Source: Neoarius graeffei (Eukaryota; Chordata; Actinopteri; Siluriformes; Ariidae). Taken from it: a stretch of 64,000 bases of DNA. Position numbers and translations under genes: made by a program. Shown in pieces: positions 42,135-48,005 of the stretch; position 1 is the stretch's first letter, and every line of letters starts with the position of its first letter. The stretch lies in NCBI RefSeq assembly GCF_027579695.1, contig NC_083587.1, forward strand, positions 44,135,732-44,199,731, given 5' to 3'. Under the pieces are notes generated by a model. That model was not told the origin of the DNA. It saw only the letters and a list, made by a program, of their open reading frames with translations, and searched no databases.

Positions 42135-43741
42135 CACAGTGCTGAGCGTAAATGAGTACACCCCCTTTGAAAAGTAACATTTTAAACAATATCTCAATGA
42201 ACACAATTTCCAAAATGTTGACAAGAAAAAGTTTAATATAACATCTGTTTAACTTATAACGTGAAAGTAAGGTTAATAATATAACTTAGATTACACATTT
42301 TTCAGTTTTACTCAAATTAGGGTGGTGCAAAAATGAGTACACCCCACAACAAAAACTACTACATCTAGTACTTTGTATGGCCTCCATGATTTTTAATGAC
42401 AGCACCAAGTCTTCTAGGCATGGAATGAACAAGTTGGTGACATTTTGCAACATCAATCTTTTTCCATTCTTCAACAATGACCTCTTTTAGTGACTGGATG
42501 CTGGATGGAGAGTGATGCTCAACTTGTCTCTTCAGAATTCCCCAAAGAAAATAATTTATTTCCACCACAAAGGTGAAGGCTACAAGAAAATCAGCAAAGC
42601 TTTACTTATCAGTCAGAATACTGTAGCAAAAGTGGTACAAAAATTTAAGAAAGATGGAACTGCAACCATCTCACAGAGACGTCCAGGTCGTCCACGGAAG
42701 TTAACACCTCGACAGGAGCGTCTTCTGATTTGAAGGGTTGAAGAAAATCGGCATGCAAGTTCACTGCAGTTATCTAAAGAAGTAGAAAACCAAACTGGGA
42801 TGACTATTTCCCATGACACAATATGGCGTACACTGCAGAGGAATGGCATGCATGGATGCCGTCCACAAAAGAAGCCTCTCCTAAAGCCCAGGCACAAAAA
42901 AGCCCGCCTAGAGTTTGCCAGGGCCCATGCTGACAAAGATGAAGACTACTGGGACTCTATACTCTGGAGTGATGAGACCAAGATAAATGTTTTTGGAACT
43001 GATGGTTTCAAAACTGTATGGTGTTGCAAAGGTGAGGAATACAAAGAAAAATGCCTGGTGCCTTCAGTGAAACATGGTGGTGGCAGTGTCCTTATGTGGG
43101 GCTGCGTGAGTGCTGCATTTCATTGATGGCATCATGAATTCGCAGATGTATTGCTCTATACTGAAAGAGAAGATGCTACCATCACTCCGTGCCCTTGGTC
43201 ATCGTGCACTTTTCCAAAATGATAATGATCCTAAACACACATCTAAGGCCACTGTTGGATTTCTGAAGAACAGGGTGCAAGTGATTCAGTGGCCAAGTAT
43301 GTCTCCTGATCTGAACCCAATTGAACACCTATGGGGAATTCTGAAGAGACAAGTTGAGCATCACTCTCCATCCAGCATCCAGTCACTAAAAGAGGACATT
43401 GTTGAAGAATGGAAAAAGATTGATGTTGCAAAATGTCGCCAACTTGTTCATTCCATGCCTAGAAGACTTGGTGCAGTCATTAAAAATCATGGAGGCCATA
43501 CAAAGTACTAGATGTAGTAGTTTTTGTTGTGGGGTGTACTCATTTTTGCACCACCCTAATGTGAGTAAAACTGAAAAATGTGTAATCTAAGTTTATATTA
43601 TTAACCTTACTTTCACAGTATAAGTTAAACAGATGTTATATTAAACTTTGTCTTTTCAACATTTTGGAAATTGTGTTCATTGAGATATTGTTTAAAATGT
43701 TACTTTTCAAAAGGGGGTGTACTCCTTTACGCTGAGTACTG
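42135..43741 (+). mobile_element. Tc1-like element, family E, with 3' end inverted onto its 5' end
   Basis: Bounded by TA (42133-42134, 43742-43743). The left ~410 bp (42135-42545) are an inverted copy of the right ~410 bp (43335-43741), including the last 60 or so transposase codons (LKRQVEHHSPSSIQSLKE), which therefore occur on both strands. The original 5' end and first codons are missing. The plus-strand transposase starts abruptly at about 42563 (HHKGEGYKKISKALLISQNT), has a TGA at 42731 and a frameshift near 43113. DDE blocks are LWSDETKINVF, FQNDNDPKHTSK and SPDLNPIEHLWG. Confidence 0.92.
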
Positions 43742-43744
43742 TAA

Positions 43745-44597
43745 ATATACATGGTTGTTGGTTTAAACAATTATCTGATTGGTCAGATGTTTTAGCAGAT
43801 CAGGTCCAGGCCTGGAAAAATCACTCCAGAAGCAATCTCATCAATACTGATAAACCCAAGCCTGAGCTATAGGTATCGTTGTCGGTCTGGTGTGACCACC
43901 ACCAACAAACTGCAGGGGACCAATTTATTCATAGTTATCGGTATTGTGGGACGACTAGGACTTAAAGGACATTACATGGACTTGGGAACACTTCGGAACT
44001 TATCGTGTCGGAGGAAGAACTACTATATTGAATTGCATGACATTCTTTTGCATTGCATCATATCGTATCATATTTAATCACATTGTGTTGAATCAAATCG
44101 TGACAAATTCCACTGCATCACCTCGGGGTGAATCGTATCATATCGTATTAGTAGTTTCTTTAGAAGACTCTAATTTATTGGATCATTAGCAATGCATTGA
44201 GATGTGGACTGCGTTGGCATGACGGAGATGCTGCACTGATGGTGTGTGACTATCAGTATGAAAGTGGAACGATATTCTTTAATCGTTTATTCAGCACAGG
44301 CAATTTGTGACATAACTGATTCCCATGCCAGCTCTGTGTGGGTACCAGTAGCCTGCTGTACTAGACTGTTGCATAATGGCTGATCACTGCCAATTGTGCA
44401 GGTTACGGTATGCGACGGCCGACCAATGCTGCAGTTGCAATCACGTTTTCTCAGGGAAATGCATTTCTAGCTGATGTAACTCCTGAGGATAGCAGCAGAA
44501 TAAATTCAGACGACTACAGAAACATTCTGCCTGCCAACTTCTAGAGAAATGCATCCAATCTAGTTGGGAGGAACTTCATCATGCAGCCAGTCAATGA
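43745..44597. other. no gene seen
   Basis: It includes a run of related ATCGTATCATAT motifs (44055-44150). No feature recognised. Confidence 0.4.
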
Positions 44598-47222
44598 TAG
44601 TACAGCAGATAACTATAAAAATCGTTCAGATGGTGAAACAAGCATGAAATTTGGCACAGATTGTCTCCAGGACCTGCTCTTTTCAAAAAAGGCGTTGGCC
44701 ACATGAAAATCCAAGATGGTGACCATTTTTCAAGATGGCCGACATCTGTGGTTGAAAGTGATTGGATGAGGTTACATAATGGACAAAGTATGCAGAATTT
44801 TTGAGCTCAACTCCATGGATTTAGGTGATAAGTTGCTGCATACAGGTAATTTTAGTTACAGAAAGTGTTGCTTGGGAAATATCCAAGATGGCGTCCAAAA
44901 TGGCGGCCACAAATGGTAAACTTAATACCTCAGCAACTAATTCAGATAGAGACACGATTTTTTGATCCAATGATGTGTTTTAATCAAGGAAGTTTATTAA
45001 TATGTTATTCAAGCCAAACTGGCCATGACATGGGTCAAGACAGCATCGAAGTTGGCCACCAAAAATACCATAGGGTAAAATATTTTGGTCATACAAACAG
45101 TAACCATAGGAAAGATATCATGTATACCTGGATTCAAGACACTGAACATGGGCATGTTACTGTGCTTGTTTTGGCTATATAATATATAAACACAAAAAAT
45201 TGTACCATAATATTTAAAAAATACAAAAATAAAGAAAAAAATTGAGATATAAAAAAAAAAGAGATTTAAACTTCACACTTGCAACTGCACAAAGCTGTGC
45301 AGGTAAGACCCAGCTTGTAGCATTTGCACCTGCCACGACAGCCTGCTTTGCAGCCACACTTGGTTAGCTGTTGGCAACTCTTGGCTATGGGAGAGTTGGC
45401 TGTCCAGAAAACCTGCCATGCTTCACCTGACTTCTGCCATCCCCAGTCAGCAGGACTCTCTGGTTCTGGCTGACATTGGGTTGCTTGGCCCCACACACAA
45501 CCAGCCTGGTAAGCAGCACACTTTGTATGTTGAAGCAGAGCTGCTTTGGTTGGTGGAATGGCCTCATAGGGCCTTTGTTTCCTTGCAAACATGTAAAACC
45601 TGGCCTCATCCACAGTGGCAGCAGTGCTGGACCTGTTATACATGAGTATGACAAACTTCTCCAGGATCTGCAGGTCACCCTCTTCTACTGTGAGAGGGTA
45701 CTGACTCAGTTTGGAGAATACAGGGGAGGCCTCAGGACAGATGTCCCACGTTTGCCAAGCCGTCTTCTTGCCCTTGTTCCTGAAGGCTGAGACGGTGTCA
45801 CAGCCTGTGAAGGCATGAAAGAACAAGATGCCAGAGATCTTTTCCTGGCTCATATGTTTACACGTCATGGATGCTGATCCATCGCAAGCTCTGGCCTTGG
45901 CCAAATGCCACCCAAAGGTACTCCAACCCCAGACTCTGAAGTATGTGGAAGACACTCAGTGCAATGATGACAATATCTGTGTCATTTGCCTTGATCACAA
46001 TGGCTTTGCTCCCATGTACCACAAGTGGTATTTTGCCATGTTTTGTCTGAGTGTGGCTTCTATGCCACCACCTTCATCCAGCCTTGCTGGGTCCATGATC
46101 AATGGCATTTCATGGAGCTCACTGAACACAGGCATGTTCCTCGCCAGCATACTGTAGCCATCATGTTCTGGGACATGGTGACTTGGAGATGTCAAGTTCT
46201 CACCTCTTTTGACAAAGGCAACATAAATTCCAGTTTGTTTTTCTGTTTGCAGTAATAGAATTGGAATCTGCCATGATTTCACTTTCTGATTAAGGCCGAG
46301 GGGCTATCCTTTTACCACCTTAACCAAATTGTGCACACATTACTGTATGGGATTCAACTTGGTTCGGTCACCCCACACCTAGTCCGATCATTCATCCAGT
46401 GCCATTTAAGTCCTGTGTGATCTGTACACCATCCGGGTAAGTACATGACTAATCATGTACAGCCCCCTTACCCTTGGCTCGGCTCTCCTGCGCTGGCACA
46501 TCTTGTCAATTCAGGTGCGGCTATCTAACTAGTATCTAATAGCTATAAAACTAATGTTTACTAACTAATTGATATGGGGCTGTTAGAAAGCATTTGGGAC
46601 ACTAAGCTATACTACAACTACTAGTCTAATACTATAGGATTAGTAAAGCTAGATCAGCAGACACTGAACCCCATGCTGAGTTACACAGCAGTGACTGTCA
46701 CCAGTGTGCCCTGGTTGTGTGCCGACATTCACTCTTTTTAAAATTGATTTTCCCCCACCATTCTTTATTGATTTTTTTTTTCTATTATCTTATTGTCACT
46801 AAGATATGTTTTACGGGATATGAAATCATGCAAGCCAAGATCCACTCCCTAATTTTTTTTTTTGCTTGATTTGGCTTTATTTGTCAAAGAAATATCATTG
46901 TTTTCATTGTGCGGCAGCCATTTTGGCTACCATATTTGATGCTATATTACACTGTGATGGTAACAGAAAATATGTTTCACAAAATGAGCTTATAAGGGCA
47001 AAAAAATACTAAAAGAGCAAATACATGGAAAAATATTACACGAAGAACCTAAACTTGTCACTCACCAGCAGCCATCTTGAAAAATGGCCGCCATTTTGAA
47101 TTTTTTGTGTGGCCAATGCCCTATTTAGAAAGACAGGACTCTGAAGAGTATCTGTGCCAAATTTGATGTTTGTTTCACCATCTGAATGATTTTAATGAAA
47201 TATGCAGTTATCCGCTGCACTA
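44598..47222 (-). mobile_element. TIR element with a HAFTGCDT/CXC protein relic, internally deleted, 2.6 kb
   Basis: The two ends, about 150 bp each, are inverted copies. TAGTRCAGCRGATAACT is followed by ATCGTTCAGATGGTGAAACA (left) or its ATCATTCAGATGGTGAAACA counterpart (right), then AAATTTGGCACAGAT, GGCCACA and TTTTTCAAGATGGC. TGA occurs just outside both ends (44595-44597, 47223-47225), a possible 3-bp duplication; TA is an alternative reading. Subterminal AAGATGGCGGCC-type motifs are clustered at both sides. The protein relic on the minus strand is listed separately. The middle of the gene is missing. Confidence 0.7.
45266..46282 (-). pseudogene. HAFTGCDT-motif protein with C-terminal CXC Cys cluster, deleted in the middle
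   Basis: An N-terminal piece (46282-45999) reads ARNMPVFSELHEMPLIMDPA then RLDEGGGIEATLRQNMAKYH. A C-terminal piece (45955-45266, 229 codons, open) contains FFHAFTGCDTVSAFRNKGKK at about residues 45-64, RPYEAIPPTKAALLQHTKCA, and ends in a Cys-rich module (CGCKAGCRGRCKCYKLGLTC, CTALCSCKCEV) like the CXC repeat of tesmin/TSO1 proteins. Proteins with this order are widespread as uncharacterised, multi-copy genes in fish, corals and other animals; I recall no assigned catalytic activity. The GCDT..G.GK block resembles the GCD stretch of FEN/XPG-type nucleases (inference). The region between the pieces is deleted. Confidence 0.6.
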
Positions 47223-48005
47223 TGACCCAAAACACACTGCTAACACAACAAAAGGCTTCATCAGGGGGGAAAAACTGGAAGGTTTTAGACCAAAGCTGTG
47301 TTCACATATATACCGGTACAGTTTAGTGCATCTGTCCACACTAGCGAGAAATGTTTGCGGTTTTCTTTCACGGTAGTTGAAATGCGCGTGCGCGAAATGT
47401 TTCCGTGGTTACCGAGTAACTTCCTTCCGAGAATATGGCGGATGAAACGCGTGTGTGCTTTTTGTTGTCAATGTAGAGTCTGTATTTCTGGTGGTCATTT
47501 ATTCAGTCAAATCGTATAAAACGCACGAGGCAGTTGAGAAAGAAACAAACGAATCTCCGTTCTTCAGTATTTTATTCAGCAAAGACATCGATTGAGGTGC
47601 GAGACTTTGCGCATTATATTTGCATCGATACAGAACCGCTTCATCTGTCCACACTACAGTGAAGCACTACAGTACCGATACTGTACCGGTACGAAACCCA
47701 TACGTTTGTGGGTTTCGTACTGATAGTTATACCGCTACAGTACCGGTATAGTTGCTAGTGTGGACAGGTGTTGCGGTACGAAAGTAGTACCGTATCGGTA
47801 CAAAATCCCTAGTGTGGACAGGGTACTAGGACAGTCACCAGACCTTCAATAAACTAAGCATGCTTTTCACCTCCTGAGGAGGAAACACTTGGAAAAGCAT
47901 AAAGAATAATGCAACAGTTTGATGTCAGTGGGTTACTGGCTCGATGCAAGAAAGAGCCTTGAAGAGTTCATACCTCAAGGGGTTTGAGCTGTTTTGGTGG
48001 CACAC
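47215..48005 (+). mobile_element. Tc1-like relic, split by a MITE
   Basis: Before the MITE the translation gives DPKHTANTTKGFIRG (second catalytic D region), and after it GQSPDL (third) and a tail with CNSL and SVGYWLDARKS. No termini are seen. Confidence 0.6.
47282..47826. mobile_element. MITE of the CTGTCCACACTAG type
   Basis: Inverted ends share GTCCACACTAG (47333 and inverse near 47810), and repeats of TACCGGTACAGT and its inverse (47312, 47683, 47740) fill the subterminal parts. Its removal joins the two halves of the Tc1 relic. Confidence 0.6.

Follow-up and report, generated by a model that had tools for sequence, protein, structure and literature searches.

A probable AcademX-type DNA transposon copy, internally deleted and inserted in a Tc1-like relic of Neoarius graeffei

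A transposon with terminal inverted repeats (TIRs) occupies positions 44598-47222 of the window, by which we mean the whole 64-kb stretch of Neoarius graeffei DNA that was analyzed (64,000 nucleotides), and it sits inside a Tc1-like relic. The features of the locus, with their positions in the window and the evidence for each, are as follows.

44498-44597, plus strand: left flank, part of the Tc1-like transposase relic that served as target (joined-flank frame, empty sites)
44595-44597, no strand: left target-site duplication (TSD), TGA (sequence and a TSD test on 25 copies)
44598-44750, plus strand: left TIR, first letters TAGTACAGCAGATAAC (inverted-repeat search, genome search, BLAST, comparison of termini)
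44731-44739, plus strand: CAAGATGGC, YY1-type 9-mer (reverse complement of GCCATCTTG), inward-reading (motif scan)
44884-44892, plus strand: CAAGATGGC, second YY1-type 9-mer near the left end (motif scan)
45266-45955, minus strand: C-terminal protein piece with the HAFTGCDT block and the CXC cysteine cluster, a 229-aa open frame carrying FFHAFTGCDTVSAF (open reading frame list, alignment to relatives)
45858-46073, minus strand: 71-aa open frame with the nuclease ANDTDIVI stretch in another frame (comparison with the long copy L038)
45995-46303, minus strand: open frame with an N-terminal protein piece, …MPLIMDPARLDEGGGIEATLRQNMAKYHL (open reading frame list, comparison with L038)
46022-46023, no strand: junction of the internal deletion, a 2-bp overlap (alignment to L038)
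47071-47079, minus strand: GCCATCTTG, YY1-type 9-mer in the right end, inward-reading (motif scan)
47071-47222, minus strand: right TIR, last letters GCTGCACTA (inverted-repeat search, BLAST, comparison of termini)
47223-47225, no strand: right TSD, TGA (sequence and TSD test)
47226-47290, plus strand: right flank, the same Tc1-like relic continued (joined-flank frame, empty sites)

The inverted-repeat search returned terminal arms at 44615-44709 and 47102-47196 (95 nt, 79% complementary) and a second pair at 44706-44739 and 47071-47104 (34 nt, 88% complementary), and BLAST merged both pairs into about 154 columns at 78.6% that reach out to the element termini. The original prediction had described inverted ends of about 150 bp enclosing N- and C-terminal pieces of a HAFTGCDT/CXC protein, with a possible TGA duplication. 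The observation of a TIR-bounded element carrying these pieces is confirmed: the frames at 45995-46303 and 45266-45955 lie between the ends, and TGA stands at both borders. The TSD was counted over 26 copies, namely the window copy, eight close copies (L031-L037 and L039) and 17 of a subfamily at 82%. Both ends were located in 25 of the 26 (L019 was the exception), and an exact 3-bp TSD was present in 21 of these 25 and a 4-bp TSD in one (L031); L035 agreed at 2 bp, and L036 and L024 agreed at two of three bases. Random pairing of left and right flanks across copies produced a mean of 1.56 exact 3-bp matches and a maximum of six in 2000 shuffles, so that the count over many sites bears out the duplication. 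Left outside this count were L038, which is without its first 28 bases, and L040-L042, which show no right end within 9.9 kb. The left ends begin with TAGT in all 25 copies.

When the window flanks were fused with a single TGA, the resulting frame read IMQPVNDPKHTANTTKGFIRG, which we take to be Tc1-transposase-like. The fused 174 nt spans the junction in at least 39 other loci of the host genome at 84-88% identity, as seen in the best 40 rows of 1092 candidates, and the match to the window itself is split at position 99 of the fused sequence. These uninterrupted matches indicate that the empty site is present in many copies and that the borders of the element are exact.

The left end, searched against the host genome (G000, 2.34 Gb, 38 contigs), gave, in the best 40 of 434 first-look candidates, the window, 12 copies at 95-99% (for one of them, L013, the match covers positions 29-153 only) and 27 copies at 81-82%. 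Genome searches with the ends had been proposed as a way to full-length copies, and the search with the left end did yield a long copy, L038, of 6578 bases from left end to right end, but its left end is damaged and its gene is broken by an insertion and a stop. The open frames of L038 on the gene strand measure 838, 265 and 423 aa. The stop parts the last two, and the first two are parted by a 484-bp foreign insertion (L038:6156-6639) with ends TTGTTAGG and CCTAACAA and CCG on either side, on which account an intron at this position was rejected. Aligned with L038, the window copy falls into two blocks, 44598-46023 and 46022-47222, whose counterparts in L038 lie 3.96 kb apart, 484 bp of this being the foreign insertion, and the predicted internal deletion is thus located; it has brought the N- and C-terminal pieces together. 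The nuclease domain is only partly kept in the window copy. The stretch before CKHMSQEK is in another frame, an arrangement common to the window copy and L039, so the window copy is dead as a gene. One other deletion is common to L031, L032 and L035 and another to L034, L036 and L037, with target-site flanks that differ. Because the same deletion forms occur at differing sites, the deleted forms themselves must have transposed, and movement in trans is implied by this. Among the copies examined, none from the window's own subfamily was intact.

Ten further nuclease loci (L043-L052) were picked by hand from the genome matches to span the range of identity, nine of them at 44-96% to the L038 nuclease and L052 at 53% to the window piece. 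A TIR homologous to that of the window lies 5′ of the gene in nine of the ten, and in L051 no homologous TIR occurs in the stretch read. The HAFTGCDT gene therefore travels with these ends, which contradicts the notion that the ends never flank it. Taken together, the TIRs, the 3-bp TSD, the internal deletion and the gene beside homologous ends identify a DNA element of the cut-and-paste type, as had been proposed.

The protein is more complete in several relatives. L079 has a single 1252-aa frame that runs from N-terminal Cys/His segments into the nuclease, and its family shares 41% identity with L038 in the transposase part, while L043 carries the nuclease and the CXC tail in 571 stop-free aa. 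When L038 and L079 are aligned with L078, a distant relative at 25-30% identity in the transposase, the three share two Cys/His segments, then DNxD, VITxD and E..N followed by K..GG..G.T. We infer that the conserved Cys/His segments bind zinc and that DNxD, VITxD and E..N form the DDE triad, supplying the catalytic residues of a DDD/E core. As judged from the alignments, the relatives encode a single protein that combines two Cys/His segments, a DDE-like core, a FEN/XPG-like domain and a CXC tail. L078, with L080 downstream of it (G000:C7, about 61.81 Mb), belongs to a distant sister lineage that has the motifs of the nuclease along with a Cys-rich tail, and in which GAE replaces GCD. Nuclease sequences of the HAFTGCDT type are abundant in the host: the window piece has at least 151 matches there and 1140 first-look candidates, and the sequences fall into several families, with identities of 50-100%.

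The GCD block had been likened to FEN/XPG nucleases, and it does fall within a set of seven acidic residues in FEN1 order. The nuclease alignment holds 15 rows from 14 loci, and because column coverage varies by row the acidic columns are given with their own denominators: D57 in 8/8, D100 in 9/9, E188, E189 and D191 each in 13/13, D215 in 11/14, D217 in 14/14 and D277 in 11/12. The exceptions are L076, with a gap over the EEAD stretch (E188-D191), the loss of D215 in L047, L076 and L077, and the loss of D277 in L072. For the seven columns other than E188, the counterparts in human FEN1 are D34, D86, E158, E160, D179, D181 and D233, all of them catalytic. The order of the residues agrees and the spacing is comparable (52/72/2/19/2/52 in FEN1 and 43/89/2/24/2/60 in the nuclease family), and the E-A-E/D and D-x-D pairs also occur in four XPG_I exons of host genes, of which XPG and FEN1 were identified by search and GEN1 and EXO1 were named by eye.

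In contrast to the agreement of the acidic residues, all profile searches were negative. Pfam searches with two pieces from the window, three from L038 and 12 members of the family gave no significant match; PF05061, with an E-value of 0.0024 in three of the 12 members and 17.1 bits in L038 against a cut-off of 25, was taken as chance. PDB searches, by sequence and with two profiles, brought up no solved structure significantly similar to the nuclease. When the family was compared by hhalign with the four host XPG_I segments, the real score was reached by 29/100, 57/60 and 179/200 column shuffles. No relatives turned up in the viral contigs, prokaryote genomes and phages searched. A search for the pattern FHAFTGCDT gave no viral match and one prokaryote match, L053, whose frame is without other family likeness and which was taken as chance, and tblastn with the host XPG segment, aimed at further FEN references, had no match in plasmids or phages. 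The link of the nuclease domain to FEN/XPG therefore stands at motif level only, where it draws on the acidic motifs together with the published account of a nuclease encoded by AcademX (PMC10045372, in the part available to us). Unlike FEN1/XPG nucleases, the domain forms one protein with a transposase and has a CXC tail behind it. Conservation of the acidic residues is an argument for a FEN/XPG-like part that is kept for a working role in transposition.

We conclude that the element in the window is, very probably, an AcademX-type DNA transposon copy, non-autonomous and with an internal deletion, that had inserted into a Tc1/mariner-type relic. The nuclease of AcademX is of the XPG type. In the part of the published account available, AcademX is a lineage of DDD/E transposons said only to encode a nuclease, and its TSDs of 3 or 4 bp, as against 9 or 10 bp in AcademH, are tied to the encoded nuclease or helicase (PMC10045372). 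The elements described here agree with AcademX in TSD length (3 bp, once 4 bp) and, both at motif level, in a DDD/E-type transposase and in an added nuclease with XPG/FEN-type residues, and the long copy of about 6.6 kb, its 484-bp insertion included, is near the mean of 5565 bp given for curated bivalve Academ elements in the excerpt at hand (PMC10294476). The filing as AcademX follows from this fit of architecture, TSD and size to Academ as published, the comparison being by description and not by sequence and showing no difference; the CXC tail and the YY1-type TIR sites go unmentioned in the parts of those descriptions available. It was a 2010 report that brought Academ into Repbase, and the Repbase rule for non-autonomous copies is similarity at end positions 1-11 (PMC4455052, in extract). 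AcademH shares the superfamily name and the DDD/E transposase (PMC10045372, PMC9587614, both in extract) but has a helicase and 9- or 10-bp TSDs (PMC10045372), which were found in 0/25 copies, and it was rejected, as was a RAG-like or ProtoRAG identity, with a 5-bp TSD in 0/25.

The original prediction had suggested an undescribed transposon superfamily, which would require that the TSD and the nuclease are alike by convergence and that the DDE core is unrelated to Academ. We consider this unlikely, since a nuclease, a DDD/E transposase and a 3- or 4-bp TSD make up the combination already published as AcademX (PMC10045372) and since Academ is known from several fishes (zebrafish, medaka and stickleback, and not tetraodon, according to the text available of PMC4746887). 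Speaking for a new superfamily are the lack of any Pfam model covering the protein, the absence of the string HAFTGCDT from every paper in the literature searched and the reliance on description in the comparison with Academ. Of the earlier interpretation, the cut-and-paste element with its TIRs, 3-bp TSD, deletion and FEN/XPG-like residues holds, and the undescribed superfamily is not supported.

Harbinger, EnSpm/CACTA and Zator make 3-bp TSDs, and by TSD length alone the element could belong to one of these superfamilies after acquiring a nuclease. Harbinger TSDs are TWA and EnSpm/CACTA termini start with CAC; here TAA accounts for 4/21 and TTA for 0/21 of the exact TSDs and the left termini are TAGT without exception, and both were rejected on these grounds. 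Pfam includes models for several transposases of the Harbinger/EnSpm/Zator group, and the transposase parts of L038 matched none. We consider such an origin very unlikely. That the locus belongs to a host gene family with nearby repeats and is not mobile can be dismissed: in many animals the annotation lists HAFTGCDT proteins as uncharacterised genes, but the TSD statistics already contradict this view, as do the empty sites, the shared deletion forms and the TIR homologues at the further nuclease loci. With the AcademX assignment preferred, the anonymous HAFTGCDT/CXC genes gain a likely identity as the nuclease half of AcademX-type transposases and not as host genes. The window element is real and well delimited, a rather ordinary deletion derivative within a transposon lineage already known, if little studied.

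We propose that the Cys/His segments together with the CXC tail bind the TIRs, and that the DDE core would excise the element and join its ends to a target opened with a stagger of 3 nt, where filling of the gaps would generate the 3-bp TSD. At the ends of transposon or target, the FEN/XPG-like domain may cut either a flap or the second strand. In this scheme the CXC cluster is a candidate DNA binder and the nuclease is putatively active, and the window copy, unable to make protein, could move only in trans. The scheme raises a testable question: what a transposase gains from a flap-nuclease-like domain, and whether the 3-bp stagger is shaped by it.

The ends also carry YY1-type sites. AANATGGC occurs seven times in the terminal 2 × 350 bases, compared with a mean of 0.24 and a maximum of 4 in 2000 Markov null sequences, and the 64-kb window contains three copies of CAAGATGGC, every one near an end of the element, compared with a naive expectation of 0.49. 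The 9-mer is present within 300 bases of both ends, inward-reading, in 13/13 two-ended copies from both subfamilies, these 13 being related copies and not independent events. Among the divergent loci L043-L052, the TIR match includes the exact 9-mer in 6/10, L049 having a recognisable TIR without it, and in the stretches L071-L081, most of which fall short of the ends, it was found in 0/11. Conservation was scored across eight aligned right ends, each from a different family or subfamily, after the near-duplicates L043, L044 and L052 and the two left ends were dropped. The 9-base stretch of the site at TIR position 125 ranked first of 152 such stretches (conservation 0.84, mean 0.58), with two others also printing as 0.84, and the site at position 144 was ordinary (rank 65 of 152).

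GCCATCTTG is the YY1 consensus and the TR5 element in the TIRs of lancelet ProtoRAG, where its mutation lowered reporter transcription and recombination (PMC7481187, in the part available). ProtoRAG thus shares the YY1 9-mer in its TIRs with the elements described here, but it differs in having 5-bp TSDs, a CACTATG end element and RAG1-like and RAG2-like genes (PMC7481187), and we do not claim common descent of the two kinds of ends. The literature searched held no paper treating YY1, Academ and DNA transposons together. We offer as a tentative possibility that AcademX ends use host YY1, in that the conserved CAARATGGC at position 125 of the TIR, in many cases joined by another at 144, may be part of the recognised end, and that YY1 might control both transcription and end recognition, as reported for TR5 of ProtoRAG, which is unrelated. 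YY1 and the transposase are alike candidate readers of the 9-mer. If the YY1 reading is true, dependence on YY1 would have arisen repeatedly among animal DDE transposons, by convergence; the sites, likelier than any other part of this analysis to surprise a specialist, suggest a second, independent DNA transposon built around YY1.

Two further features lie beside the element. Just to its left, the open frame 43110-43511 (NDNDPKHT..., SPDLNPIEHLWGILK) is presumably a fragment of a Tc1/mariner transposase. To its right, a close inverted repeat at 47635-47656 and 47756-47777 (22 nt, 86%), whose left arm overlaps a repeat of 47329-47350, is possibly a small MITE.
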